A stretch of DNA of 64,000 nt from Ogataea parapolymorpha DL-1. Its lineage: Eukaryota; Ascomycota; Pichiomycetes; Pichiales; Pichiaceae. The notes beneath the pieces are model-generated. The model was not told the origin of the DNA. It was given only the letters and a program-made list of their open reading frames with translations, and ran no database searches. Of this stretch, positions 2,473 through 42,353 are shown piece by piece. A program made the position numbers and the translations under genes. How positions within the stretch are numbered: the stretch's first letter is position 1; each line of letters starts with the position of its first letter. The DNA lies in NCBI RefSeq assembly GCF_000187245.1, contig NC_027863.1:432735-496734 (forward strand), given 5' to 3'.

Positions 2473-4671
2473 ATGAATTTTCTCACTAAAACTATCAATT
2501 CTACCATCGGTTCATTGACAGGTAGCTCAATACCATATGATTTAGGACAGAGAGTAGTGAATGGAGTTTGCAGTGATTCTCTCGAACCAAACTCTGTGTG
2601 GAATGTTTATGAAGCAACTTCTCGCAAAGAGCCTCGTGTGCGGGTAACTGTATTTGAGTTTGATCTCAAGAACCCGCGAGCGTCAAAGTATGTGCTGTTT
2701 GCAAGAAATGCATTCATGAAGCTTAAATCTTTGAGTCTTTTACCAGGAATTCTAAACATCGTTGATTTTATTGAAAACGATTCATTTCTCTACATAATAA
2801 GTGAAAGGGTGAAACCATTGGGGAGCGTATTGAGGATGGGATCGAGTGATTCTATGTCACAATATGAGCTTTTGTTATTGGGAATATATCAAGTTACAGA
2901 AGCTTTGAAATATCTTAACAAAGAAGGATCATCCATTCATGGTTCGCTTAGCAAAAACTCTATATTCGTGAATGAAGCAGGCGAATGGAAACTTGGCGGC
3001 TTCGAGCTCGTCGTGAATATCCAAGATCCTGATACGGAGATTCTGAGCCGAGCATTTGATTTGCCTACTTATCTGTCGACTATACACCCACCTGAATTAA
3101 ATGAACAGAGGTTGGATTACATTTCAAGCGCCAGTCTGGTCCAGCTCTTAAAGCTTGATGCCTATGATCTGGGTGTTTTCATCTACAGCGTTTTCAATTC
3201 TGAGGTACAGAATCTCGATCCTACCAAACTTAACAAACCAAGCAAGCTTCCAAGATCTCTTGCATCGCACGTCAAAAAGCTCCTTCATATATCGCCATCC
3301 GTAAGATACTCAGTGGAAGAATTCTTAAATGCTGGAATGCAATCATGTTTCAACTTACCGCTAATCAGTGTCTCGAAACATGTTTCAGAGCTTAGGTTGA
3401 AATCCACGGCTGAAAAACTAGAGATATTTAACTCCCTAGATGAACTCGAACAACTTCCTGATGGCTTTTTTGAGTATAAGATTTTGCCAGAGCTCATCTC
3501 CACCTTTCAGTCTTTGTCGACCAACCAAGATAGCCAGCAGTCTGCTCTCTTACTATTGATTTTAAAGCGTGTGGATCAACTGGATAAAAGAACTTTCCAG
3601 CACCAGGTTAAACCTCTCGTATTGCGAGCATTTGAACTTCCAGATAGAGCAATCAGGATTACACTCCTGAGTTCGTTACCAACGATCATTGATTATTTTG
3701 CACCTTATGAAATTCAAGATAAAATCTTTCCGAATTTGGTTCAAGGCTTCAACGATACTAATTCGTCGATACGAGAAGCTACATTAAAGTCGGTACTTTC
3801 AATTGCAGATAGAGTATCAGTCCGACAGCTCAACAATGACATTTTGAAGTACATGGCAAAACTTCAAAACGATTCAACACCGGAAATCAGAACTAATACG
3901 ATAATCTGTCTATCCAAAATTGCAACATACATGACTCCTTCTTCAAGAGCTGCCGTACTCGCCACTGCTTATTCCAAAGCGTTGAAGGATCCGTTTGTAC
4001 CCTCTCGGGTAAGTTCATTGCTTGCTTTCGAAAACTCTATTGAGTACTTTACTCCAGATGTGTGTTGCTCAAAAGTTCTGTCAGCTATTGCTCCTGCTTT
4101 ATTGGACAAGTCGTCGAAGGTGAGAATAGAGGCCCAGAGAGTGTTTGACTTGTACTTTTCGAAAATCAATGAGGCTGCCAATCATTTACCATTAGACAGT
4201 GAGGAGACCGTAAATTTGGAAAGCCAGAATTCAGAAAATATACTTTCTCGATTAAACACGCTTTCCCTTTCGAGTATGAAATTGAAGAATACGCAATCAT
4301 TATTATCAGGCTTGGGGTCTAATGCACATTCAGGATCCACGGTGAGCTTGACAATGAAACAGGAGAACCCTAGCTCAGAGTCTCTGAATGCTGATCGGTC
4401 CTTGAAAAACTTCTCAACTGCAAATGTAGAGGACGGCTGGAATGAGATGGATAGTGATTGGGATTCTACTTCTGATTATCAAAGCAAATCTTTACTTCCA
4501 CATCTGGAGGCGAGTCAAAAACTCCAAGAAAGCAAACAGCTCAAAGCTGCTCACCAGCTCATCAAAGACATTCCACAAACACCCAAAAGACCACTTAAGT
4601 TACAACCCAAATCCAAACTGAAGCTCGATTTGCTTGACGATGATGTTGACGGCTGGGCAAATGAGTGGTGA
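2473..4671 (+). CDS. CEX1: SCY1-like pseudokinase with HEAT repeats, CEX1 type
   Basis: The 732-residue product has an N-terminal protein-kinase-like domain (about residues 15-290), then an alpha-helical HEAT-repeat region (about 320-590) and an acidic tail ending DGWANEW. The kinase fold lacks catalytic residues: HGSLSKNS stands in place of the HRD loop and GGF in place of DFG, so it is a pseudokinase. This architecture is that of the Scyl1/Cex1 family. Yeast Cex1 (761 aa) is a cytoplasmic factor that receives tRNAs leaving the nuclear pore and also acts in COPI traffic. I start at ATG 2473 (MNFLTKTINS, like Cex1 and Scyl1 N-termini); the frame extends upstream only to a GTG. Two tryptophan-rich acidic patches (DGWNEMDSDW and the terminal DGWANEW) resemble the COPI-binding tail known in this family. 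Confidence 0.85.
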   Translation: MNFLTKTINSTIGSLTGSSIPYDLGQRVVNGVCSDSLEPNSVWNVYEATSRKEPRVRVTVFEFDLKNPRASKYVLFARNAFMKLKSLSLLPGILNIVDFIENDSFLYIISERVKPLGSVLRMGSSDSMSQYELLLLGIYQVTEALKYLNKEGSSIHGSLSKNSIFVNEAGEWKLGGFELVVNIQDPDTEILSRAFDLPTYLSTIHPPELNEQRLDYISSASLVQLLKLDAYDLGVFIYSVFNSEVQNLDPTKLNKPSKLPRSLASHVKKLLHISPSVRYSVEEFLNAGMQSCFNLPLISVSKHVSELRLKSTAEKLEIFNSLDELEQLPDGFFEYKILPELISTFQSLSTNQDSQQSALLLLILKRVDQLDKRTFQHQVKPLVLRAFELPDRAIRITLLSSLPTIIDYFAPYEIQDKIFPNLVQGFNDTNSSIREATLKSVLSIADRVSVRQLNNDILKYMAKLQNDSTPEIRTNTIICLSKIATYMTPSSRAAVLATAYSKALKDPFVPSRVSSLLAFENSIEYFTPDVCCSKVLSAIAPALLDKSSKVRIEAQRVFDLYFSKINEAANHLPLDSEETVNLESQNSENILSRLNTLSLSSMKLKNTQSLLSGLGSNAHSGSTVSLTMKQENPSSESLNADRSLKNFSTANVEDGWNEMDSDWDSTSDYQSKSLLPHLEASQKLQESKQLKAAHQLIKDIPQTPKRPLKLQPKSKLKLDLLDDDVDGWANEW

Positions 4672-4762
4672 CTTTCGGCTTTTGAGGACGAGGCTCAAAA
4701 TTGACACTCGTGTGTATTATCAATTTTTGAAAACAATTTCTCGTGCAGCCCAAAAAAAAATG

Positions 4763-4854
4763 CTCCTTATCAGGGGCTCGAACCCTGGACATTTCGGTCG
4801 ACTTCCGAATAAATCCTTAAAAGCCGAACGCTCTACCAACTGAGCTAATAAGGA
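4763..4854 (-). tRNA. tK(UUU): tRNA-Lys (anticodon TTT) with intron
   Basis: On the minus strand the sequence from 4854 to 4763 folds as a complete tRNA: a 7-bp acceptor stem (TCCTTAT with ATAAGGA) and discriminator G, a D arm with GCTCAGTTGGTAGAGC, and a T arm with GGTTCGAGCCC. The anticodon TTT is followed by A37 and then a 19-nt intron at 4817-4799. The exons are 37 and 36 nt, giving a 73-nt mature tRNA close to S. cerevisiae tRNA-Lys(UUU), which also has an intron here. A run of T on the minus strand (A run at 4752-4760) is the Pol III terminator. The gene marks the left edge of the gene desert. Confidence 0.96.
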
Positions 4855-5227
4855 CGGAACTGCTTATCTAAGATATTTGACATTCACATAGACCTGAGAT
4901 GAGCCATTTACTGACACAACAAATTTGGTAACAAGTGAAGAAACAATACAAGCACGAGTAACGTATACTCAAAGTAGATGGAAGCTTTGCGAAGCAGGTG
5001 ATTTGCTTCAGCTTGAGGATATGATCGTAAAACTGTGTATGAGTCTCATATTTGCTTCAAATTATGTAAGCCAACGATGGTAATGATATTTACGCACGTG
5101 ATATACCGGCTCAGCAATCCGGCTAATTTAAACTGTGAGATGGAGCCCAAGGTCAGTCTAGTCTTGGTTACACAGAATAGTCGTGCATCCAATCTGGCCT
5201 CGAGAAAACGGCCGTTCCATGTATAAC
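4855..5227. other. Spacer between tRNA-Lys and LTR A
   Basis: There is no gene here. One E-box octamer reading ATCACGTG on the minus strand (5095-5102) is a possible Cbf1-type site. Nothing else stands out. Confidence 0.4.
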
Positions 5228-5509
5228 TGTTGAAACTTTGTTTTGATAAATGTAATGTCAACAGTCATTATTCTTCCTTCAATAGTAGGACTATGTATCA
5301 GATAGTTGATATCTTTGGTATACCTTAGTCCCTCACTTATAAGTGGGATATGACACACCCTTATATATTATTTGGTTAGTCTCATATGTGATTCAGATTT
5401 GTATCATCTGAATCTGAGGCACATAGAATGCATGTGCTAAGACCCACAAACTTCAGATCAGGATAAGCCGCACAGCCATGATATAATCTATGACTATCTT
5501 ATCTCAACA
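5228..5509 (-). repeat. Solo LTR A (minus orientation), with 5-bp target duplication
   Basis: This 282-bp element is bounded by TGTTGA and TCAACA and matches the other three copies over its whole length when reversed. Direct repeats ATAAC flank it at 5223-5227 and 5510-5514, a perfect 5-bp target-site duplication. No internal retrotransposon body is attached, so it is a solo LTR left by recombination. It contains a TATA-like TATATAAGG and two small hairpins. Confidence 0.93.
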
Positions 5510-8500
5510 ATAACGTGTTAGACAATTGTTAAGTATGTACCTGTCGCTTGGTTTGCAGGTACTTTCAAATTTTGTATCTGGGTACTAGCGATGCGAGTGT
5601 GAAACGTTACAAAATTTAGACAAAACCCAAGATCAGTAGGAATAGGTCTCAAATCATTTGTCCAATAATTAAGTATGAGCTTCAGTTGCTGATACCAGCT
5701 ACCTTAGCTACTTTAATCATTTTTCATAAAACCTATTCAGAATAATGCTACGAGTTCACCATTTAACTTTTAGAATATCAAGAATTTAGTTATAGTCCCA
5801 CTATTTCAAAGAAACCTTAAACCCAGAAATGTGTTCCAAACTAGGCAGTCGGTATCTCCCGCATCACTTTTGAGCAAGGTGTTGAAAATAGTCATGCGAG
5901 TGCCAGGAACTAACGACACATGTCTAATAAGTTTATTGAAAACTAATGAATACATTAGGTACTTGGTATCACGGTGTCTGTATAAGTTATGATGAATCGA
6001 ACAAAGATTTCGCCTATTTTATGACCATTCGTTCAGATTATAAATGGAAAAGACAAGCTCGAATAATTCGAGGGGATAGACTTATCAAGCTTTAAGAATC
6101 TATATCTTTGATGTTCACTCGACTATTACAGAGCTTCCCTTTTACCTTTTTTATGAGTAAGTTGCCTATCCATTAACTAGAGCAGTCAAAGTGGGATATG
6201 CCTTCGAGTCCCTGTAGACATGTTCCATAGGATAAAATTGTTCCTTTACCGAGTAATCAAAAACAACTGACATGATCTTTCATAAATAAAAAACTACTGA
6301 TATTAAATATCCATGCCTCAACCTTTTTCTACGTATCCCCCAACTTCCCTGGTGCGCCCTCATAATAAGCCAGACGCGTCAAGGAGGCAATCTCAACATT
6401 AAAATTTACATTTATTCTTATCGGTGGCAAGCTGTTGAATTCTGATGTTGAATTCTATTCACATAGTACATACACCGAATTGAAGAGATATCTCAAGAAT
6501 AAAAGTATTTGTAATCTCAATAACTTGAACATCATACAAATCTCCTGCTTCAAAGGAATCATAATATGGAAATATATTTATATATATATCACATAAAGTT
6601 ATACATTTAGAAATATTGGAATACCTGGATAATGGAAGTATTTTCAATATTTCATGTTTGGAACCTGGTCCGTCTCCGCTACAGGATAAGCTCTTGGAGT
6701 GATCATGATTGACTCATTGATGAGTAAATTTGTTAAAGGAATTCTGTTTTCAGGTTAGGGAATTTTTAGGGAAGTCATTTTAAGATTATAGATAAGTATC
6801 TCTTAACAAACCATTTCTTGTGCTTTAGGATGTGCAATGTGGGTCTCATAATTGCCTGCACACGTCTAGCATTATTATGCACGAGCCACAAATCTCTCAA
6901 ATCAGGATACAATGACTGAAATACAATAACATCTTGCGGAAGCCAAAGGCTATGATCTCAGATAATGAAAAGAATGTCATTTCACCGAATGAGTCATGTA
7001 GTGTTCATTAGCGAGTAAATTACCTAATAATGGACTTCTTTCACCGGGTATGTCTTTTTATTTTTCCTTTGTGTAGCCTAATGTTCAATCAGAAAGCCAG
7101 AGAAAATAGAGGGACAAGATACAGTCACAATCTCAACAGCCAAAACGTTATGTATATCAACTAATATTGCGGCAAAAGCAACGTTTTAGGTGAAGACATA
7201 AACTGAGGTAACTGTTGAACCATGTATATATTCTATCCCAAATTTGTATAGCTAGTTAAATTCACAATTTTATACTTAAAAATTACGCTTGTTCATGATC
7301 GCCAGATGTGAAACTTTTTTTATGTTTCACTTCTAAATGAAATTTATGGATCGACTGCAACATTCTCAGCAAAACAGGATTCTCAATAACCAGAGGCTGT
7401 ATAAATATATTACCCCTTTATAGATTGCCAAAAAAACACAGCCTCTTCTCTACTTCCACGGACATACAAAAAATGCGAAATGCTACAATTGTGGTGCTGA
7501 TCCAAAATTTGATAAGATGAATTGTTTTATTTGAGACTGAAGTTTATTCTTAGCACCTACCCTCACTTAATCGGTACGAATCCTATATTACCACAATCCT
7601 AGTTAGGCAATGAACTAAGAAAATCCTAGTCCAGATAGAAGTTTCGAACTTTCAATTGGTTTGGGCTAATATATATAGCGAGATTGCTGAGAAAGGATGA
7701 CTAAGTTATGTGAGTGACGAAGTCTTTTGTGTCTTGATAAGCAGTTGGAGAGCTAGTTGGACCTGGGAGTATTCTAATACCTTTCATATTTAAGTTTTCC
7801 AGTACATGAGATATACTGCACGCTCCATTCTTAACTTTTTAGTGAAGAAAGAAATGTAAGAGACGAGAACATAAGTTCCCTTTTGGAAAGCAAAAAGAAA
7901 AAGTTTTAGCAGAGTTCGCTTATTAAGGATACATTTTATTGATCATGACCTTCCACCCCATTTTTATCTTAGGATAGATATCATTAATTTGACTTTGTCG
8001 TTTTTGCTTTGATGAGTACTCATTGGCTTCTTTTGACCAAAAGAAAGTTCCTTGAGTTGCGTACCTTCGAAACTTAGAAAACAAACATGACTACATTGAA
8101 TCAACCCAGACGGTGTCGTAGACATGCTCAACTTGTTGGAGATTCCAAAAGTATACTCAAAGCAGCACGGTTACTTTTTCGTGTGTGATTTAGTTCCATA
8201 GTTTAGCAATGTCAGCAACATGCATAGCTGCTAATTCATATTGGATGTGTCTACCTTTAGCGAAGAGGAAGCAATAGTCCATGCAAGACTCCCGAAATAT
8301 TTGTTAAGACAGTTGAATGCATGACCTTTATAATTTGAGGAGTGAAGAAAGTCAAAAATCTGCTCATGACATTAGTTGCATGCTATTTTTTAGGTACCTG
8401 GTTATGAAAAGCCTGTCAGATCAATGACCTTGCTGCCTACCCTCCTCCACCTCCAACGTGTGTAACATGTGCATATATGTTTTGAGTAAATATTCAAAAC

Positions 8501-8687
8501 CAGCGGCTTGTAGCGAATCAATAAGTGTACATGAAATAGCAAATATGCCTAAGTATAGCTCGGTTGCAAAGTACAACGTGATCATTTATCAAAGCTACGT
8601 ATCGCAAAGATTGCAAAGTGTGCGAACTGTTTTATTTCAATCTCCAAGGTGCCAACCAGCAGATAGGTGGTAATTTTAATGATGTTG
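5510..8687. other. Non-coding AT-rich spacer between LTR A and LTR B
   Basis: There is no supportable gene in these 3.2 kb. I see a probable decayed LTR (about 6731-6975) and a 9-bp inverted repeat (7392-7400 with 7438-7446) around an AT-rich core. The remainder is unremarkable AT-rich sequence dense in stop codons. Confidence 0.5.
6731..6975 (-). repeat. Probable decayed LTR of the same family
   Basis: Within 6841-6975 the order GGTCTCATA, GCCACAAAT, TCAAATCAGGATA and CTATGATCTCAGATAAT follows that of LTR A (AGTCTCATA, CCCACAAAC, TTCAGATCAGGATA, CTATGACTATCTTATCTC). A weaker TGTT-starting match sits near 6731. No target duplication or clean ends remain. The match is by eye and could be partly chance, so the boundaries are approximate. 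Confidence 0.35.
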
Positions 8688-8931
8688 TGTTGAGATAAGA
8701 TAGTCATAGATTATGTCATGGCTGTGCGGCTTATCCTGATATGAAGGTTTGTTGGTCTTGTTGAGATATGCATATGAGGCTAACCAAATAATATATAAGG
8801 GTGTGTCATATCCCGCTTATAAGTGAGGGACTAAGGTATACCAAAGATATTAACTATCCGATACATAGTCACATTATTGAAGGAAGAATAATGACTGTAG
8901 ACATTACACTTATCAGAACAAAGTTTCAACA
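8688..8931 (+). repeat. Solo LTR B, internally deleted, with 5-bp target duplication
   Basis: This 244-bp copy runs from TGTTGA to TCAACA and is flanked by TGTTG at 8683-8687 and 8932-8936. It lacks the roughly 40-bp segment that in the other copies holds two short hairpins, and has a short unrelated bridge there. The perfect target duplication shows that the shortened form either inserted as such or was deleted after insertion. Confidence 0.92.
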
Positions 8932-11842
8932 TGTTGCATGAATTCCCCAAGATAAAACCGACTGGAGTTTAGTAACACTATCCCTTAAATTTGTGTCTCT
9001 TTATTAAAAGGAAAACAGGTGGACGCGCACCACCTCGGATTCTGTCATAAAGTGAAGGATATTTCCTGTGAGATTACCCGCATGCTGTGATCGCTTTGAG
9101 AAAGTTCTGCACAGGTAGAGCATCTGCCGAGGCCGTAATCTTTTAATATATGTATTAACCTTCATGTTGATTTTTCCCTGCGCTCAATTGCCCCTTGTAC
9201 TGCAATCAGACGTGTGCAACATCTCTAGTGCTTACACGTTGAGATAGAAGACCTTTACAGATTTCGCATTATTTTTGCTTTTGGTATGAACACAGATTTA
9301 CGTAATCATTATTTCTCTCGACCTCTTCATCTATATATGCTCCATGTTGGATTATGGACTTCAGCCTTACAGTGCTTTGACTACCCTGTGTTCTCTCGAC
9401 CGCTGAACTGTGGATTTTGCACACCACCACCACAATCAGAGTACGCCGGTAGAAAAAATGTTGTTTGCTCCTGGATTGTTCGGTTCGGATTGACATCGCA
9501 TTTGTCGTTTCCAACTTGAAGAGATGGTTTCGGAAGCCAAGCGACTTGCTATTAGCCGGAGTTAAGCGTTCGCTCAAGTATCTGAAAAACACGCCTGATG
9601 ATTGTTCTCTTAAGACTGAAGCCCCCAAGTGTGAATTGTAGGGTACGACGATAGAGATCGGAGAGGTGTAAACAGTCATGAGCTACCACTTGGGTACGTA
9701 TGAATACTTGCGACTGTTCGTATTACATGGAGGTCAAACAAACAAGTCACAGTGACCTCACGATCCACTAATGCCAAATACTTAGCAATGGAAATGTAAT
9801 GGATGAGCTTGTATGGCTGACAAGGTCGCAAGGCTTTGGAATCAACTGGAATTTTGCACCTCCAATACCACAACTTCACAAGTGAGTAACACCAGCACCA
9901 TGGAGTTAAATTAGCATTCAACCTATTATCCTCGGATCAGGGACCATATTCAGAAAAATCACTTGAAACTTGAGCAAACTCCGGGCAAGCATTGTTAGAC
10001 CTATTGTTGATAAACACAGTTCCAGAAGCTACGCTTATCCCTTGCTGATTAAAGATAAATTCAAAAACTTATGATAGATACACGACTGAGATAGTTGTTC
10101 TGATAACGTCCAGTCCCAAGTTGAAAGGTCTGCGGCTCAAAATGATTTGTAAAAAAAAACTATATGAGGAGACCACTACTTTGATGTTGTCTGACATGGG
10201 TAAGAACGCAGTCGTCAAGTCAAATCTACTAGTCAATTAGCCATACACGAACGCTCCAGCATGAATTGCTTTTGTTGGCAGTTGAACAAGAGAACTGTCA
10301 TTGCATTCATTTGATGTACTATGCAATGCGGTAGATTCTTGTTTGAGAATTCGAGTTTCCGTCGTTGGATACCACATAATACACAAAGTTTTAGGTTAGT
10401 CGATAATTCCTCGTACCGTCTAGCAGAGCAGTATAAAAAACCCGTGTCCAATACATTTCATAACACCTCACACTCGTTCTTCTGTATTTATTTTATCAAC
10501 AAGTATTCGAGCTGGCTTATGATGGGAGTCATCCGCGATGCACTGCAGAAACTTGCTGATTCTTCTTCTCTTTATAAAACTTTCAATTGGAAACAGCCCT
10601 CATCAACTAAACCACGTTTTGGTTTGTCGTAGCTGATATTTTGATATCGGGAATCGCAATTGAGGGTTGATTTTTCATCAATTATTTACAGGGTTTGCCT
10701 ATAAACTTCTGAGCTGGTGTTAGAGATTACTTAGGTGACTATTCTCTAGTGTGCCTATTAAAGATTATGAGCACGTTTAGATTTGTGGTAAGCTTTTTTT
10801 CAAATCGGATGGTCTATATTTTTTTACATACTAAACTTTGAGTTAATTACACCCTACAGACCAAAATAGGATGCATGATATTTCAAAGAGACATATCCAT
10901 GTATGATCCCAACAAGATTAGAGCTTTTAGTGTATCTTGTTGCTTAACAATATCAAAGATGCGATGATGTAAATTCGGATCCGAAGTGGGAGTTGTAGAT
11001 GTTATGTCGCAGATTTCAGCATGCGCGAAGCTGATATGGTATCTGATGTGGTATTAATCCTACGGTTGACGACAAATACATGATTCGGTATTCCAACTAG
11101 GATTTTCTAGATACCGAAAGATTAGACTGAAGGACTGACTTTACTCTCTTCTATCCTTGTCATAGATGACACTAAATTTACTCAATACTTGAAAAGGAGT
11201 GTTCATGCATTGCCAGAGTTACCTTTGAGTTTATCTACTGTGGATTCTCTATTAGATACCACTCAGCTAGTTGTGATATCGCAGTATGCGTTTCATCCTA
11301 AATTGAAGATAGGCCCTGCCAGGGATAACATTTATGGGTTTTATCAACACAAGTTGTATAAAGTAGCAGAGCTCCTACGTCACTACACCTAACAAGTTCA
11401 GATGGTCGTGCAAGCGCCAAAGATAAGATCTTGGAGTTTGATAGAATTATCCCTACGAGTTATCCGAAGTTGCTCATCTATTCCAGTGTGAGACAAGTAG
11501 TTTCACATCATTCTGCGCTTTGTTAGTTTAATAGATATGAAAAGAGTGGGATGCTCCCTTTTGTTTTTTCACAAGATGTATACGATGTTTTAATTACTGA
11601 CACTACATTTTCTTCTATATTTCTATTGTGTACCTCCCATACATGTATGTGATATATTGCTAGAATTCAAGATCTGAAACCGGTTGCAAGTAGAATTACT
11701 GGCGTCTTGAATATCCGTCTCTCCCACTTAGTTTCTGGTAAATCGGAGGTTCATGCTTGTTCCAATCCGCATAAAATGAAGCCAATCAAAAATTTACATA
11801 AGTATTGTTACCAATCAAGCTAGAAGCGATAGTACTGGATTT
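8932..11842. other. Spacer between LTR B and LTR C, containing a copia pol relic
   Basis: Apart from the degraded pol sequence listed separately (about 9270-10640, minus), I see no gene. A GGTGG/CCACC hairpin lies at about 9018-9035, without a tRNA fold around it. Confidence 0.45.
9270..10640 (-). pseudogene. Decayed Ty1/copia-type pol (reverse transcriptase and RNase H remnants)
   Basis: Reading the minus strand in shifting frames gives retrotransposon motifs in the correct order. Near 10570-10490, PARILVDKINTEE resembles the KARLV.KGF stretch before the RT core. Near 10330-10250, HQMNAMTVLLFNCQQKQFML resembles the copia RT HQMDVKTAFLNG motif. Near 9840-9750, AKYLALVDREV resembles the RNase H EAEY.AL....E motif. 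Near 9630-9600, PISIVVPYNSHLGASVL resembles I..DN.SAI.L. Near 9550-9460, SKSLGFRNHL and SKQHFFYRRTL resemble KHI..R.H and KQ.AD.FTK.L. Spacing in the RNase H part is close to normal; the RT part appears to have lost about 100 codons, including the YVDD box. Frameshifts and stops make it non-functional. This is motif matching by eye, not a search. Confidence 0.5.
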
Positions 11843-12133
11843 TGTTGAGATAAGATAGTCATAGATTATATCATGGCTGTGCGGCTTATCCTGATGTGAA
11901 GGTTTATGGGTCTTCGCACATGCATTCTATGTGCCTCAGATTCAGATGATACAAATCTGAATCACATATGAGTCTAACCAAATAATATATAAGGGTGTGT
12001 CATATCCCACTTATAAGTGAGGGACTAAGGTATACAAAGATATTAACTATCTGATACATAGTCCTACTATTGAAGGAAGAATAATGACTGTAGACATTAC
12101 ACTTATCAAAACTAAGTTTCAATAGTTTCAACA
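11843..12133 (+). repeat. Solo LTR C, no clear target duplication
   Basis: It begins TGTTGAGATAAG and matches LTRs A and D over about 280 bp. The 3' end carries an extra copy of a TTTCAA-type end, so it closes as TTTCAATAGTTTCAACA at 12117-12133. The flanking five bases (GATTT and CCAAA) do not match. It is either an older insertion, a product of inter-element recombination, or altered at its end. Confidence 0.85.
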
Positions 12134-13117
12134 CCAAATGGTCTATTATTTGAAATAAGAACATAGGATAAGAAATTGCACTCTTATATTAGCCACATTA
12201 ATGAAGGATATACAAAAAGCGGGGCTATCTCCAGTTAGTTCCGAAGGAGCCAATTCAGAGGTTAGGTTGTCAGGGAATGCATTTGATTTTGTTAATGAGG
12301 TGTCCGCTTCCAATGTTAATGTATATTATACGAACTATATCCAACAGGGACAATTGAGACTCTATTATAACTGTGATAGTCTTCAACATGGTGGTTCTCG
12401 TTCAAACGGATTATATTCGAATGTTGAGGAAACAATGCTAATAGGGTACTGAACCCTTGTATATGCTCGAAAAGTGATAGCAATTCTAAGTAATATCTTG
12501 AATTATATTTATTAGAGGCCTAGAATTCATGTTGGGTGGTACCGAGCTAGAAAAGAGTCCTTATTTTGACTGTTCGTAAATCTCTCGACCTTAGTTATAG
12601 TTTTGAGGTCAAAAAAAATGTTTTTCGTGATTCAGAGCTTGTTTTTAACATGATATTTTGTTTGAAACTGCCTACTTTTGGAGCCAATATCATTATATCA
12701 CGTAGGGCCATTGAAACTCGTCTGTACTCCATTTTCAACACATCCTCCGATTTAAGATTCAGGCTTATTAAATCTTAAGCTAGCAAACTTCATTACTTAC
12801 TGGCTGTGCCTACACTAAGTAGTCCTTGCACATAACAGAACATTTAGCGTTATGCAAGTATACACTAGAGTGTGGGAAGAAAAGCAAAGCAACTACCCAC
12901 GTTACCAAAAAGCATAACGCTTGCTTACATATCAACTAAGTTCATCATGAGAATGGTGAATGCATCAGACTTCCATCACAAAAGCGCAATCCATTTCATT
13001 GACTTGTTGGTATCCATCGATGAGATCTTGTAACTCACAAGTAGGCATCAGTGATAAAATATTTTTACACAAACCCTGCCTGCTTCAGCTTTAACTTGTT
13101 CAGTTTTAATCAAAGGT
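12134..13117. other. Non-coding spacer between LTR C and LTR D
   Basis: Nothing supportable is seen. Short open frames at 12201-12452 and 12566-12778 have no recognisable motif; the second lacks a usable ATG at its start. Confidence 0.4.
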
Positions 13118-13400
13118 TGTGGAGATAAGATAGTCATAGATTATATCATGGCTGTGCGGCTTATCCCGATATGAAGGTTTGTGGGTCTTAGCACATGCAT
13201 AATATGTGCATCAGATTCAGATGAAACAAATCTGAATCACATATGAGACTAACCAAATAATATATAAGGGTGTGTCATATCCAACTTATGAGTGAGGGAC
13301 TAAGGCATATCAAAGATATTAACTATCTGATACATAGTCACACTATTGGAGGAAGAGTAATGACTGTAGATATTTCACTTATCAGAACAAAGTTTCAACA
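13118..13400 (+). repeat. Solo LTR D, with 5-bp target duplication
   Basis: This 283-bp element starts TGTGGA (one change from the TGTTGA of the family) and ends TCAACA. AAGGT repeats flank it at 13113-13117 and 13401-13405. By eye it is more than 90 percent identical to LTR A in reverse. No internal coding region is attached. Confidence 0.93.
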
Positions 13401-13754
13401 AAGGTTACTTTTCTAAGACGTATCAGACGGTAGCTTAGCACATAGCGCATTCGACAGAAACATCAGAAAACCTTATATTGTTTTCAATTACTTAATCACA
13501 CACGCTGACAGTTGATTTTCAATAGTAGCACGACTATCATCAATTGACAAAAGGTTATACAGTATTCCATTAGGTGGCTAAATGACCTCTACTATTGACA
13601 TATGTTATAATCAGCATTATTTATGAGGGAACAAATTTTGTGGGAGTCCAGTTATTTAGCTAATGCTCGCATGCTTTGCTTGGTTACGTAACCTGAAAAG
13701 TTTCATGAGCTAATCAAGCGTGCACAGTAATCGGTTTTAAAAGAAGCTCGAGGC

Positions 13755-13900
13755 TTGAAGGCTTTAGATCCGAGCATCGTCAGACCATATTCAGGAATGC
13801 AATTGCGTATGACGGTGCTCCTAGTAATTTCTGGCGGCTTCCTTCTATGCCGTGTTGTGGATTGTTTTTCTCATAAGCCACTTGTCAACAACAGATGTAC
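13755..13900 (+). pseudogene. Possible second copia RNase H scrap
   Basis: The plus-strand frame reads SGGFLLCRVVDCFSHKPLV, which resembles the copia RNase H stretch of the form ST/SGG....G..I.WFSHKQ..V that precedes the EAEY motif. It is on the opposite strand to the larger pol relic. The match is a single short block and may be chance. Confidence 0.25.
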
Positions 13901-14673
13901 TTGGCTAGGCTTTTCAATTTCCAGTGATATATACATCACAATAATTGTGTTTTATTACATCTGATATCTATATCAATGCGTCCTACGCCGTATTTTATCA
14001 CGGTTGCTGAATCATCCTGCAAAATAATTCGTCTCAATTGCAAAAATTACGGTTAGCCGCGTATCATATTTACGTAATTTATCTTATAATAGTTTACATA
14101 AAAATATGTAGATCACGTGAGTAAAGTCAGAACGCAATGATCATCTGATAAATTGAAGTAATCTACCGACTTGGGGACGGAGTATTCATCTAATAGTAAG
14201 GACTATGCATTATTTTTGGATCAACATGAGTGTTCTTAATTACTGCAGGGGCTGAAGGCATGACTTGCATTACAGCATTTCTTCAGAAGTTCGGTGTACA
14301 CGTCAGCTTCAAGGTACGAAATATCATCTTTGGAGAGTTCATATTCGCTGATGAATACCATCGCACTTTCTGATATTGTCGTTTCTATTGAGTGACCTCA
14401 CATCCTTTATGACCAAAGCAAAGGTACGTTTTTCGGTACGACTATTTTCGAGACTTCTAATAGAAAACTCGTGATGGACGCATTTTCATCAATTTATGCT
14501 GTATTCAGATAACTGTATTTTCACTCAAGCTGCTCTTGCTTTCATCCAGTCAAAAATCTTTTGAGAGGTGGTGATGCAATTTGTAGAATTACCTCCTAAC
14601 AACTGAGTTTTCCACGGAATATTGAGAGTGATCTGAGCACCTCCAGAATCTTTAATCAGGTGTATGTCTGTAT

Positions 14674-15120
14674 TCATGTCAACCTCCAATGCGTTCCCAA
14701 CGACCTAGCGGTAGTGAGTATCAATAATCCTCCCATTATGAAGAGACCTAGAGCTTCTTTCGTCAGACCTGAGTAAATAGTCAAAGCTTGCGCAACCGTA
14801 GTCAACACTTCAGCTACAAAAATTATGATGCATTCAGTATCTGTACTATTTAATAGCCTCAATTAAGTTTTAACATCACCCGGAGTTACACTCTCATACA
14901 TAGAATCCGACCAGTTGTAAAAAGCTTTGATGAGGAATCAAAAAAGCTTTCCCCACCAGGAGCGCCGAATAATTGACCGTGAATGTGGAACGTCTCATTA
15001 GTTTGCATTAAAGACTGTTCAGCACCAAGGGATAAGGGGATACATGAACAGAGTGGATATAGAAATTGCAAGACATGCAACCCATCATCGTCAATGAAGA
15101 CTTTCTTTGCATAGGCTATG
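14674..15120 (-). pseudogene. Possible dead gene encoding membrane-like segments
   Basis: Two consecutive minus-strand frames look protein-like. The first, upstream part reads AKKVFIDDDGLHVLQFLYPL and is then interrupted. The second reads TVAQALTIYSGLTKEALGLF followed by a hydrophobic run ending in a stop at 14674. A single frameshift and one stop would join them. I do not recognise the family. It could equally be chance open sequence beside DGA1. Confidence 0.25.
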
Positions 15121-15704
15121 AACTTGAAGGCTTAAGACAGCAGCAAATTTCAAGATTACATATCTATAGTTCTTTTAATTCTCGAAAATGGGGAACCACA
15201 GAGCTTTATTGGTTTAGTTGGGACGCCATTCTGTTTTTCTGATGGGTATCGAATAAAGGGTCCTTATATTTATCTCACTTATTGTTTCACTACTATAAAT
15301 ACAACAAAACAGCTGACCAAGAGAAAATTCTCTGAACTAGTTTGGATTGTTTAGTTTGAATGCCACACATCTTTTGCAAAGTGTTAGTCACCAATCATCT
15401 CGCCCCAGCAAATTATCTATAGTTGGTTTGCGCCCCATAACAAACAACAAACTGCAAAACTCCTTTTGAAATCAAGACACGACGAAAGAAAAACGAAACT
15501 TTACAACTGAGAATGCAACGTCCTCGGTTACTTGATAGTCGTGTTCATTAACAACATCTACGTTTGAAATGCAAGGCACCAGTTAACCAGGAATATATTC
15601 ATAATTTTTCCTATTTAGGAAAAGCACATAAAAATTGGTAAGAATGTGCTGCTACAGAAATTCAAAACTGCAATTTGAAGGAAAGCGTAATATGTGTTGG
15701 CAAT

Positions 15705-17105
15705 CTATTCAACAATGTTCAGATCGCGATCATGTTCTAACAGGTATTTGTCTTTGTAAGTGGCGAAAAGCTCTTGTAGAGCTTGCACGTATAAGCTATG
15801 GTAATAATCAATTTCTTCAGGGGACACTACGTCTCCGTACTTTCTCCCATGGAGCCTTCTAACTGTTATGGGAGCTCCAGTGACAATGTGGATCGGACGT
15901 CTGTGGGGAAGAAGTCCAAAATCATAGTTCAGCAGCCCACGAGAAACTATTATAGGAAGAGTAAACCCAAAATTCTTTTTGAGTCGAAGTTGGAACCATT
16001 TGAGTAACTGGCGTATATAGCCATCATTCTTGTTGTTAGAATTCTCCGTCTCATTAGTGTAGTACACGTCATAAATGTTGTTCTCGCCAAATGCGTACAC
16101 TGGCACCAAACATATATCATCATTATTAAATCTTCCACTTGCCTGGAGTGCTAATTTGACAAAACCTTTTCGCCTCTTCAATACGATAGAATTCAGATGT
16201 GGTTTTGCAAGCAAACTTTCACTTGCACCACCGACCACAATAACCACGCTGTGTCCTTTGTCCAACAAAGATGAAATGTTTTTTTTGGTCACAGCAGTAC
16301 ATCCCAAGCTCATCAAGTAATCACGATAAAATGGAAGCTGAAACTGGTTTACAAGTGTGGTTACAAAACAGCGGATTCCTGGAAACAGTTTCGAAAATCC
16401 TGCACCTTCAGTTGCGAACCCCGCGAACACTCCCATAGCGATAACGCCATGAGGATGATAGCCAAAAATGTATCTAGGCCCTGTAATTGTCTCTCTTTCG
16501 ACGGTTTTTTTTCTTTTTTGTATCACTTTCCATCTGAACAGTGAACTCAGCAAGAAGTTTGGGGTGACAGATGCGAAAAGCGGCGGAATATCGAACTCCT
16601 CTAATTCAACTTTTATTGGGGTTTTGGTAGGGGACAGTTCTTTGCTTCTATGGAGACGGACTGGATAGTAATTGGCAAAGTGCTTATACAGGCCCCAGTT
16701 TGACATTGATCGAGAGTATCTGTTGAGCGCATTACCATTAGAAGGGGTACGGTCAAATAAATAAAACCTGAACGTGTAAACGAGGAGAAATGGCCACATG
16801 AACGGATAACACCATAGGTAGAAATATATGAATGGAAGAACAACTATTGAACTACCATGTAGAAAGACTGCTAAGGTCTCCAGTCTCTTGACCAAGGGTG
16901 TCGATAATGGTGATCTGACAGGAGTCTTGGTTTTGGAGAAAATACATGACGCTTGAGAAGGTTTGCAGGTACTGAATGTCTCGTTGGGAAAAGAAGGCAA
17001 CTGAGAAATTGAAGCTGAGTCTATTTTAAGAGAAGTTTGATCCGTTTGGGGTTTGACTGCCTTTAATTGCTTGTCAGATTTTCCGGCCGCCGCTAAGATT
17101 CTCAT
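15705..17105 (-). CDS. DGA1: Diacylglycerol O-acyltransferase (DGAT2 family)
   Basis: This enzyme makes triacylglycerol from diacylglycerol and acyl-CoA at the ER and lipid-droplet surface. The 466-residue product has a poorly conserved N-terminus of about 80 residues and then a hydrophobic hairpin (about residues 85-125, including FIYFYLWCYPFMWPFLLVY). The DGAT2 signature YHPHG lies in GPRYIFGYHPHGVIAMG (about residue 215), and the family's GGASES block follows near residue 295. I start at ATG 17105 (MRILAAAGK); the frame upstream reaches only a TTG before an in-frame stop. It is the first host gene to the right of the desert. Other yeast DGA1 proteins are of similar length (418-520 aa). Confidence 0.93.
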   Translation of the reverse strand: MRILAAAGKSDKQLKAVKPQTDQTSLKIDSASISQLPSFPNETFSTCKPSQASCIFSKTKTPVRSPLSTPLVKRLETLAVFLHGSSIVVLPFIYFYLWCYPFMWPFLLVYTFRFYLFDRTPSNGNALNRYSRSMSNWGLYKHFANYYPVRLHRSKELSPTKTPIKVELEEFDIPPLFASVTPNFLLSSLFRWKVIQKRKKTVERETITGPRYIFGYHPHGVIAMGVFAGFATEGAGFSKLFPGIRCFVTTLVNQFQLPFYRDYLMSLGCTAVTKKNISSLLDKGHSVVIVVGGASESLLAKPHLNSIVLKRRKGFVKLALQASGRFNNDDICLVPVYAFGENNIYDVYYTNETENSNNKNDGYIRQLLKWFQLRLKKNFGFTLPIIVSRGLLNYDFGLLPHRRPIHIVTGAPITVRRLHGRKYGDVVSPEEIDYYHSLYVQALQELFATYKDKYLLEHDRDLNIVE

Positions 17106-40727: not shown

Positions 40728-40854
40728 TATGAGTAGAGGATGGAACAATTTACAAACGACGAAAATTAAATTCACCACGAAAAAAAAAGTTTTTTCAATT
40801 ACATATATTTAACTTTCGGATTACCAGCGATACTAGCGTGCTTCAATCTAGATA

Positions 40855-41100
40855 TTGCAAAAATGGCCGAAAGAAGACAAAATACCACTTAATAATTCAA
40901 CATCGATCTTTGCAGTGTCTTTGTTGATTCGCTTAGTGGAAACAAATCATGTACACAATATCGGTATTGTGTTAGAAATCAGGGGATTAAACATTTCTCA
41001 GGATATTACGACGTGTGCTATGTGCGTTAGCGGAGTAGCAAAAGCAGTACGGTTAAATTTTAGTAGCTTGTACCCAGGGACAGTAATAGGTTCGCAGTAG
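40855..41100 (+). other. Open frame of about 80 codons lacking an ATG, possibly Alba-like
   Basis: The frame opens at a TTG two codons after a stop and runs to TAG at 41098-41100. It reads protein-like, with VLEIRGLNISQDITTCAMCV and a terminal TVIGSQ, which faintly recalls the Alba fold (GRAISKA and IGSQ blocks). No in-frame ATG precedes this part, and I found no convincing splice donor upstream that would supply one. It may be a coding exon whose start I cannot find, a pseudogene or chance. Confidence 0.25.
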
Positions 41101-41156
41101 GCAAATCAAAGAATCCATAACTAGCAAATCTAACTCAAAATACACCCACCGCTAGC

Positions 41157-41210
41157 TGTACCATTTTCCTTGACGTTACGGACTCAGTATCTCTGACGTC
41201 AAACGGTACA
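41157..41210. promoter_or_regulatory. Nested inverted repeat containing a CRE-like TGACGTCA
   Basis: TGTACC (41157-41162) pairs with GGTACA (41205-41210), and TTGACGT (41170-41176) pairs with ACGTCAA (41196-41202). The inner right arm contains the full ATF/CREB palindrome TGACGTCA (41194-41201). It lies 160 bp before a tRNA-Glu gene. A role is unknown. Confidence 0.35.
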
Positions 41211-41372
41211 CTCTGTGATTTTCAGTTTCTCATAGGCTTCTCATTCACCACGAACGATGCACATTGATAAAGCACACGTTTTCGAATGTTAATTGTACTC
41301 CTCTCCCGTCAACTTGTATATTCCCACTGTTGACAGGTTGTGTTGAGTTGACACTCAGCGTAGGTATAATTA

Positions 41373-41444
41373 TCCGATGTAGTGTAACGGCTATCACAGT
41401 CCGCTCTCACCGGGCAGACCGGGGTTCGACTCCCCGCATCGGAG
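41373..41444 (+). tRNA. tE(CUC): tRNA-Glu (anticodon CTC), copy 1
   Basis: This is a 72-nt intronless tRNA with acceptor stem TCCGATG/CATCGGA and discriminator G, a D arm GTGTAACGGCTATCAC, anticodon loop CTCTCAC (anticodon CTC) and T arm CGGGGTTCGACTCCCCG. A T-rich terminator follows. The body closely resembles S. cerevisiae tRNA-Glu. Confidence 0.97.
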
Positions 41445-41518
41445 TTTCTTTTTTTAATATAAAAACTTGATGATAATCTAGCTGGTTAACTACTGGTCTG
41501 AGGTGTATTGTGACATTC

Positions 41519-41590
41519 TCCGATGTAGTGTAACGGCTATCACAGTCCGCTCTCACCGGGCAGATCGGGGTTCGACTCCCCGCATCGGAG
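41519..41590 (+). tRNA. tE(CUC): tRNA-Glu (anticodon CTC), copy 2
   Basis: It is identical to copy 1 except for one C-to-T change in the variable loop (GCAGAT instead of GCAGAC, last base at about 41567). It lies 74 bp downstream of copy 1 in the same orientation. Internal A and B boxes are intact and a T-rich terminator follows. Confidence 0.96.
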
Positions 41591-42281
41591 TCGTTTTGAT
41601 TTTCTTTTTATACTAATATCAGCTGTGCGTGCTTCTTTAGACGTTCAAAAAACTTTGCTAGTAGGCTGAAATGCTGGACATTAAAGCCATTACAACTAAT
41701 TGGCATAGAATTGCCTATTTTTATATATAATTCCTATCTCAGACGGATTTTTTACCGCTATGGTCTAGAGGTTTTTTTTGAATCTTCTTTCACCTGAGGT
41801 AGTCAACTCGCGTCACCCAAAATAGTAGTCCTCTCAATTCTCGTCCAATAATGAACTTTGTCAGAGGAGTCTAATGATGGCAGTGATACGTCGTTACTCA
41901 TAAAATTAGATAATAGCACAACTATGATAATGGCAGCAATGATTCAAGATTGGAGTTGTTCGAGGGGTGGCGAAAACTATGGTCCGGATATGTTGAGAAA
42001 TTCCTCCCTTGCAAAGACTCAAGACTACCCATCGTGATTTTCAATCAAAAAAGGCAATCAAGATCTTTCTCGGCCAGGCATAATAAATTCTATTGGTAGG
42101 GCAAACTCCCTTTCTCCATTGAGTTTCCCAACCTCCTTGTACACTTGATACTTTCGACCAACTCTAGCGACGTGCAGCACTGACTCTTAATGTTGTCAAC
42201 ACTTGTCACCGTTTACACCACTAGGCCAGCTCTCGCTACTTGCTCTATGTTTTGACCCAACTCATAGAAGTGTCAACTACA
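41591..42281. other. Spacer between tRNA-Glu copies 2 and 3
   Basis: These 691 bp contain no gene, tRNA or LTR that I can recognise. Confidence 0.45.
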
Positions 42282-42353
42282 TCCGATGTAGTGTAACGGC
42301 TATCACAGTCCGCTCTCACCGGGCAGACCGGGGTTCGACTCCCCGCATCGGAG
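42282..42353 (+). tRNA. tE(CUC): tRNA-Glu (anticodon CTC), copy 3
   Basis: It has the same 72-nt sequence as copy 1 and is followed by a run of ten T residues as terminator. It lies about 170 bp before the ZTA1 start codon. Confidence 0.97.

Follow-up and report, generated by a model that had tools for sequence, protein, structure and literature searches.

A gene-free cluster of Ty5-type long terminal repeats, one on each of seven contigs, as a likely regional centromere in Ogataea parapolymorpha DL-1

We analyzed a stretch of 64,000 nucleotides (the window) from contig C4 of the yeast Ogataea parapolymorpha DL-1 (positions 432735-496734; the assembly holds 8,874,589 bases in seven contigs, C1-C7), which contains a gene desert populated by long terminal repeats (LTRs) of copia-type retrotransposons and is very probably the site of a centromere. 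The desert extends over 11,033 bp between an open reading frame (ORF) that ends at 4671 and another that starts at 15705, and it contains no gene-sized ORF. By comparison, the gaps between ORFs in the window have a median of 242 bp, and the longest one after the desert spans 1,798 bp, which agrees with the claim of an initial annotation of this DNA that 4855-15704 has no intact gene in otherwise compact surroundings. The start given there lies just past a tRNA-Lys gene, and the desert proper begins at 4672. The window has 39 ORFs that are 100 amino acids or longer; a Pfam scan covered 30 of them, including both small ORFs of the desert (136 and 103 amino acids), and neither of these two matched a Pfam family. 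In this genome, the 103-amino-acid ORF has relatives only in the copies of the repeat block to which it belongs; one of these relatives carries a stop and another is split in two. Gaps without ORFs of at least 150 amino acids are present on all seven contigs and measure 10.9-18.5 kb, with retroelement ORFs not counted and four of the gaps cut by the edge of the stretch examined. The features of the locus are listed below, with TSD standing for target-site duplication and E for the expectation value.

4672..15704, no strand: gene desert, putative centromere region, without a gene-sized ORF over 11,033 bp; there is one LTR cluster per contig
4762..4854, minus strand: tRNA-Lys (ttt) gene at the desert's left edge; its anticodon arm carries an insert (ARAGORN; Rfam RF00005, 57.3 bits)
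5228..5509, minus strand: solo LTR of family A, 282 bp, TG..CA ends, TSD GTTAT
6000..6127, no strand: weak old repeat common to the C1 cluster, 68% identity, E 2.5e-5
6675..6920: old LTR-like repeat, from the sensitive cluster comparison
6883..6907, minus strand: weaker second copy of the 25-bp motif, 18/25, inside the old LTR-like repeat at 6675-6920
8688..8931, plus strand: solo LTR of family A, 244-bp deleted subtype, TSD TGTTG
9096..11668, plus strand: block X, ~2.6 kb, shared with other clusters; aligned to 11649, with homology to C2 followed by eye to about 11668
9486..9980, plus strand: decayed copia pol remnant (RNase H region) in block X, found by tblastn with the intact C2/C5 polyprotein, with stops and frame changes
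around 10074..10163: old LTR-like trace, from the sensitive cluster comparison
10114..10138, plus strand: 25-bp motif TCCCAAGTTGAAAGGTCTGCGGCTC, found in the genome only in the seven cluster deserts
11843..12124, plus strand: solo LTR of family A, altered 3' end, no TSD found
13118..13400, plus strand: solo LTR of family A, TSD AAGGT

The LTRs of family A run from TGTTGA to TCAACA and are 282 bp long when complete. Four copies lie in the desert, three of them on the plus strand and the other on the minus strand. The family shows the hallmarks of LTR insertion, TG..CA ends and a short target duplication. Three of the four are flanked by a perfect 5-bp TSD, and the earlier identification of four solo LTRs of one family is confirmed, although the duplication TGTTG is less telling because it is identical to the first letters of the LTR. 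Genome-wide, a perfect 5-bp TSD was found for 14 of 29 copies, compared with 7 of 812 mismatched pairs in which the ends were taken from different LTR copies. At least four of the 29 are not solo but form the ends of two full-length elements. Searching the genome with the family A LTR gave 31 matches, two fragments included, distributed as six on C1, two on C2, eight on C3, four on C4, three on C5, four on C6, and four on C7. On each contig the matches (31/31 in all) are confined to a single stretch of at most ~12.4 kb, located about a third or two thirds of the way along the contig and never near a contig end. The genome thus holds exactly one LTR cluster on each of its seven contigs, a count that had been proposed as a check, and the four copies in the desert are the only ones on C4, as expected from the earlier statement that the window has none elsewhere. 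The same search revealed no second desert carrying family A on C4. Between 4400 and 16200, no kilobase-long inverted repeat around a mid region, of the type known from Komagataella and Candida tropicalis, was found; the inverted pairs present there are LTR-derived, with a longest ungapped block of 224 nt.

The desert also contains decayed copia-type pol sequence, as had been suggested, in the form of matches to the RNase H region at 9486-9980 that are broken by stops and frame changes. In the whole genome, profile matches to the RVT_2 family (4/4) and to the integrase core (rve, 6/6) all lie inside clusters, and full-length copies dispersed in gene-rich DNA, which the initial annotation had named as evidence against a centromere, were not found. 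The RVT_2, rve, and LTR searches score the best candidates only, so that these counts are lower bounds. Two elements, at C2:345826-350477 and C5:453859-458512, share 4,652 bp at 99.98% identity. Each has an identical LTR pair and an open frame of 1382 amino acids, and their 5-bp TSDs differ (ACTCA and CTTCT); they are therefore apparently recent insertions into the clusters. The frame encodes rve followed by RVT_2 in one polyprotein, i.e. the domains and the order of copia elements. A database search with the polyprotein showed no Ogataea record among 120 of its 154 matches. A second LTR family, LTR-B, was found in four places, all of which are ends of the C2 and C5 elements. In C1 and C3 the frame of the element is broken, and the two LTRs of the C3 element are 96.5% identical. 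In all four elements, the inner boundary of the 5' LTR carries a primer site that complements the anticodon region of two tRNA-Met (cat) genes, which we take to be of the initiator type. The match is 12 bases long in C1 and C3 and 10 bases long in C2 and C5; the 12-mer has five matches in the genome (two elements, two tRNA-Met genes, and one locus without a tRNA) and its backward control has one. A primer site of this tRNA-Met anticodon type is described as diagnostic of Ty5 in the relevant part of PMC12711049.

The desert has a GC content of 37.3% (37.6% with the LTRs masked), whereas the remainder of the window has 42.0% and the other spacers of the window have 38.6%. Twenty 2-kb stretches of C4 were sampled and the 19 clean ones kept, giving a mean GC of 45.5% and a range of 39.5-53.5%. 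The desert is thus AT-richer than the rest of the window and than the contig at large, as had been claimed, but this holds only to a small degree against ordinary spacers. The GC trough is mostly a matter of missing genes, together with a wider dip that surrounds the cluster. A second AT-rich desert on the same chromosome was considered and rejected, as the one low-GC sample (32%) was artefactual and was dropped.

Block X is 95% identical to C2:341927-344468 and 86-91% identical to four pieces on C7 located between 564850 and 571642, and has no other match in the genome. The pol remnant in it carries a stop and a frame change that are common to the C2 and C4 copies, whereas the C7 copy lacks that stop. 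On C7 the block is scrambled (C7:564339-572160). The C7 pieces have eight ends in total: five are found no more than 90 bp from an LTR, another is 224 bp away, and the remaining two are near none. By eye, two near-identical LTRs on C7 retain both halves of one insertion site in the block. This pattern points to copying between the putative centromeres after the element had decayed, and the arrangement on C7 suggests LTR-LTR rearrangement. Only copying between C2 and C4 is shown to be later than the lesion, because the C7 copy is without that stop. Independent transposition of block X was rejected as the sole cause on two grounds: the C2 and C4 copies share the stop and the frame change, and the shared stretch continues ~1.1 kb beyond the end of an old LTR, as that end was read by eye. 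It is possible that block X is a non-autonomous element that was moved in trans. Another, older block is common to C1:315441-317461 and C3:917990-920268, at 69-83% identity.

Traces of an older LTR had also been reported for the desert. Three LTR-like traces (6000-6127, 6675-6920, and around 10074-10163) are indeed present, yet they are weak and visible only in a sensitive comparison of the desert with the other clusters, because a genome search with 6600-7000 returned only the self-match. As controls for this comparison, the reversed desert gave 0 matches and four 11-kb stretches of the window gave 0, 0, 1, and 0. At 6000-6127 the trace has an E of 2.5e-5, only slightly ahead of the lone control match (E 1.8e-4).

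From the arrangement of these sequences, we consider it very likely that the locus is the gene-free, epigenetic regional centromere of one of the seven chromosomes, in which Ty5-type copia elements, drawn to its chromatin, have accumulated over a long time. CENP-A chromatin and the kinetochore would be maintained epigenetically at the site, and the Ty5-type integrase would be attracted to CENP-A chromatin, so that new copies would insert almost only there. Recombination between LTRs would then remove the insides of the elements and leave solo LTRs, older copies would decay, and centromeres would occasionally swap segments. The single cluster per contig, the target duplications, the restriction of the elements found to the clusters, the recency of two insertions, the Ty5-type features, and the sharing of a block between clusters are observed; the CENP-A occupancy, the targeting of the integrase, and the epigenetic upkeep are what we infer. 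Loci of this type have been in print as likely centromeres since 2013, likewise as an inference, and the present result is a confirmation. According to the relevant part of Ravin et al. 2013 (PMC3866509), the likely centromeres proposed for Hansenula polymorpha DL1 are LTR clusters that are AT-rich, mostly gene-free, and positioned mid-chromosome on each of the seven chromosomes, with direct and inverted 290-bp solo LTRs (Ty1/Copia) and some full-length elements; these regions account for about half of the Ty/Copia sequences. These are probably the same loci as the seven clusters described here. The LTR length found here fits theirs, and an LTR of 282 bp is also given in the pertinent text of PMC9019687 for O. 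parapolymorpha DL-1, along with a genome of 8.87 Mb. In a protein search with trehalose-6-phosphate synthase, which scored 7999 candidates, O. angusta and O. haglerorum came out as the top named relatives, at 98%. Neither the sharing of block X nor the 25-bp motif appears in the relevant account of Ravin et al. (PMC3866509).

Related yeasts offer similar examples, as far as the relevant parts of the sources go. The LTR clusters of DL1 are cited as Ty5-cluster centromeres (PMC12711049), and in Ogataea polymorpha, a sister species with seven chromosomes, Ty5-like (Tpa5) elements and LTRs are described as centromeric (PMC9019687, PMC5720833, PMC8496258, PMC12711049). Cyberlindnera sargentensis and Scheffersomyces stipitis likewise have Ty5-like clusters at their centromeres (PMC12711049). 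All elements of C. sargentensis are apparently pseudogenes and its centromeres were placed by Hi-C (PMC12711049), whereas two copies here have an open frame and the clusters here were located from sequence. Among the matches listed from the openly licensed literature, no CENP-A or Hi-C mapping for Ogataea was noticed (Hanson et al. 2014 is cited for it). Several points weigh against a centromere at this locus. All Ty/copia sequences found here lie in clusters, compared with about half in Ravin et al., who found such sequences outside the clusters as well (PMC3866509), and remote or decayed copies elsewhere in the genome could have been missed by our searches. The GC contrast between the desert and ordinary spacers is small (37.3% versus 38.6%), and AT-richness is therefore weak evidence. 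The CENP-C-type domain found in the genome is expected in any such yeast. As to the CBF3 (Ndc10) machinery of sequence-defined point centromeres, the NDC10_II profile had no match here, nor in any of the control genomes.

A different explanation is that the centromere is defined by sequence: the motif at 10114-10138, or an LTR module that holds it, would be bound by a factor of the kinetochore or of CENP-A loading, with the retrotransposons as guests. We regard this as unlikely. With the block X copies of C2 and C7 masked and four shuffles per setting, the 24-mer at the motif reached a score of 120 out of 144 across the six other deserts (103-105 in the shuffles), and the 17-mer reached 87 (82-83 in the shuffles). 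Another motif scan used six shuffles and left the block X copies unmasked. A pattern built from the motif copies already found, allowing up to 3 mismatches, has 11 matches in the genome, all of them in six of the seven deserts (11/11), and the backward pattern has none. The seventh desert, that of C6, holds copies at 19/25 and 18/25 only, while no copy at 18/25 or better was found in positions 22001-64000 of the window. Six copies from six clusters, picked for the motif, have a mean pair identity of 0.84 within it and of 0.27-0.36 in the ungapped 30-bp flanks (15 pairs). Motifs of comparable kind are described at centromeres of Wickerhamomyces anomalus (21 bp) and S. quercuum (17 bp) in the relevant part of PMC12711049. 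In W. anomalus, the strong matches are confined to centromeres and Ty5-like elements lie nearby in some isolates, which resembles the situation here, but the 21-bp motif occurs in tandem copies without LTR overlap, whereas the 25-bp motif occurs one to four times per cluster and probably within old LTR-like repeats (PMC12711049).

Several observations count against a sequence-defined centromere. The presence of the motif in the clusters is partly built in, because the motif was picked for being shared; its copy number varies; and a scan that started from the C6 desert missed it (best 17-mer 84, shuffles 82-85; best 24-mer 109, shuffles 103-106). By eye, the copies lie where older LTRs apparently begin and are followed by TATA-like tracts, and the plain reading is that the motif may be a promoter element of Ty5-type LTRs. 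It may also be merely the best-kept part of old LTRs. We rejected the motif as a part of LTR-A or LTR-B, as its similarity to them, taken alone, falls short of significance (equally high scores arise in 128 and 561 of 2000 shuffles, respectively), and the profile matches at the 5' ends of the two LTRs are weak (E 0.036 and 0.06 when two sequences were searched). A further reading, which seems to us quite improbable, would make the motif an LTR-derived conserved centromere sequence, kept after the decay of the LTR for its aid in kinetochore building and spread or refreshed by retrotransposition and copying between centromeres. If this were true, centromeres with the motif would be a living intermediate between a retrotransposon cluster and a sequence-defined centromere.

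The clusters could instead be silent, gene-poor safe havens that are targeted by a Ty5-type integrase, with the centromeres elsewhere. Ty5 of Saccharomyces cerevisiae targets silent chromatin, which counts for this explanation, as does the fact that poverty in GC and genes is not specific to centromeres. Against it, there is exactly one cluster per contig and none near contig ends, and in O. polymorpha the MAT locus beside such LTRs is described as being under centromeric repression (PMC5720833, in the part that concerns it). We regard safe havens with the centromeres elsewhere as very unlikely. That the desert arose by chance from ordinary repeats, without a function for the chromosome, can practically be set aside: neutral decay accounts for most of the desert sequence, but the same LTR family forms one cluster on each of the seven contigs, with TSDs and no match elsewhere. 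Whether Ty5-type LTRs make centromeres or merely gather there is raised as an open question in the relevant part of PMC12711049, and the motif confined to the clusters, together with the segments copied from cluster to cluster after decay, could supply definite sequences with which to address it in a yeast that is amenable to genetics.

On its left, the desert is bordered by a kinase-like gene with HEAT repeats and by the tRNA-Lys gene, and on its right by a diacylglycerol acyltransferase gene (Pfam and ARAGORN). tRNA genes were rejected as general borders of the clusters: among 23 cluster loci scanned, they are present at one locus of C2, at one of C6 (two genes), and doubtfully at one of C3. 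The longest ordinary spacer of the window, at 40795-42353, holds an snR5-type snoRNA and three tRNA-Glu (ctc) genes.

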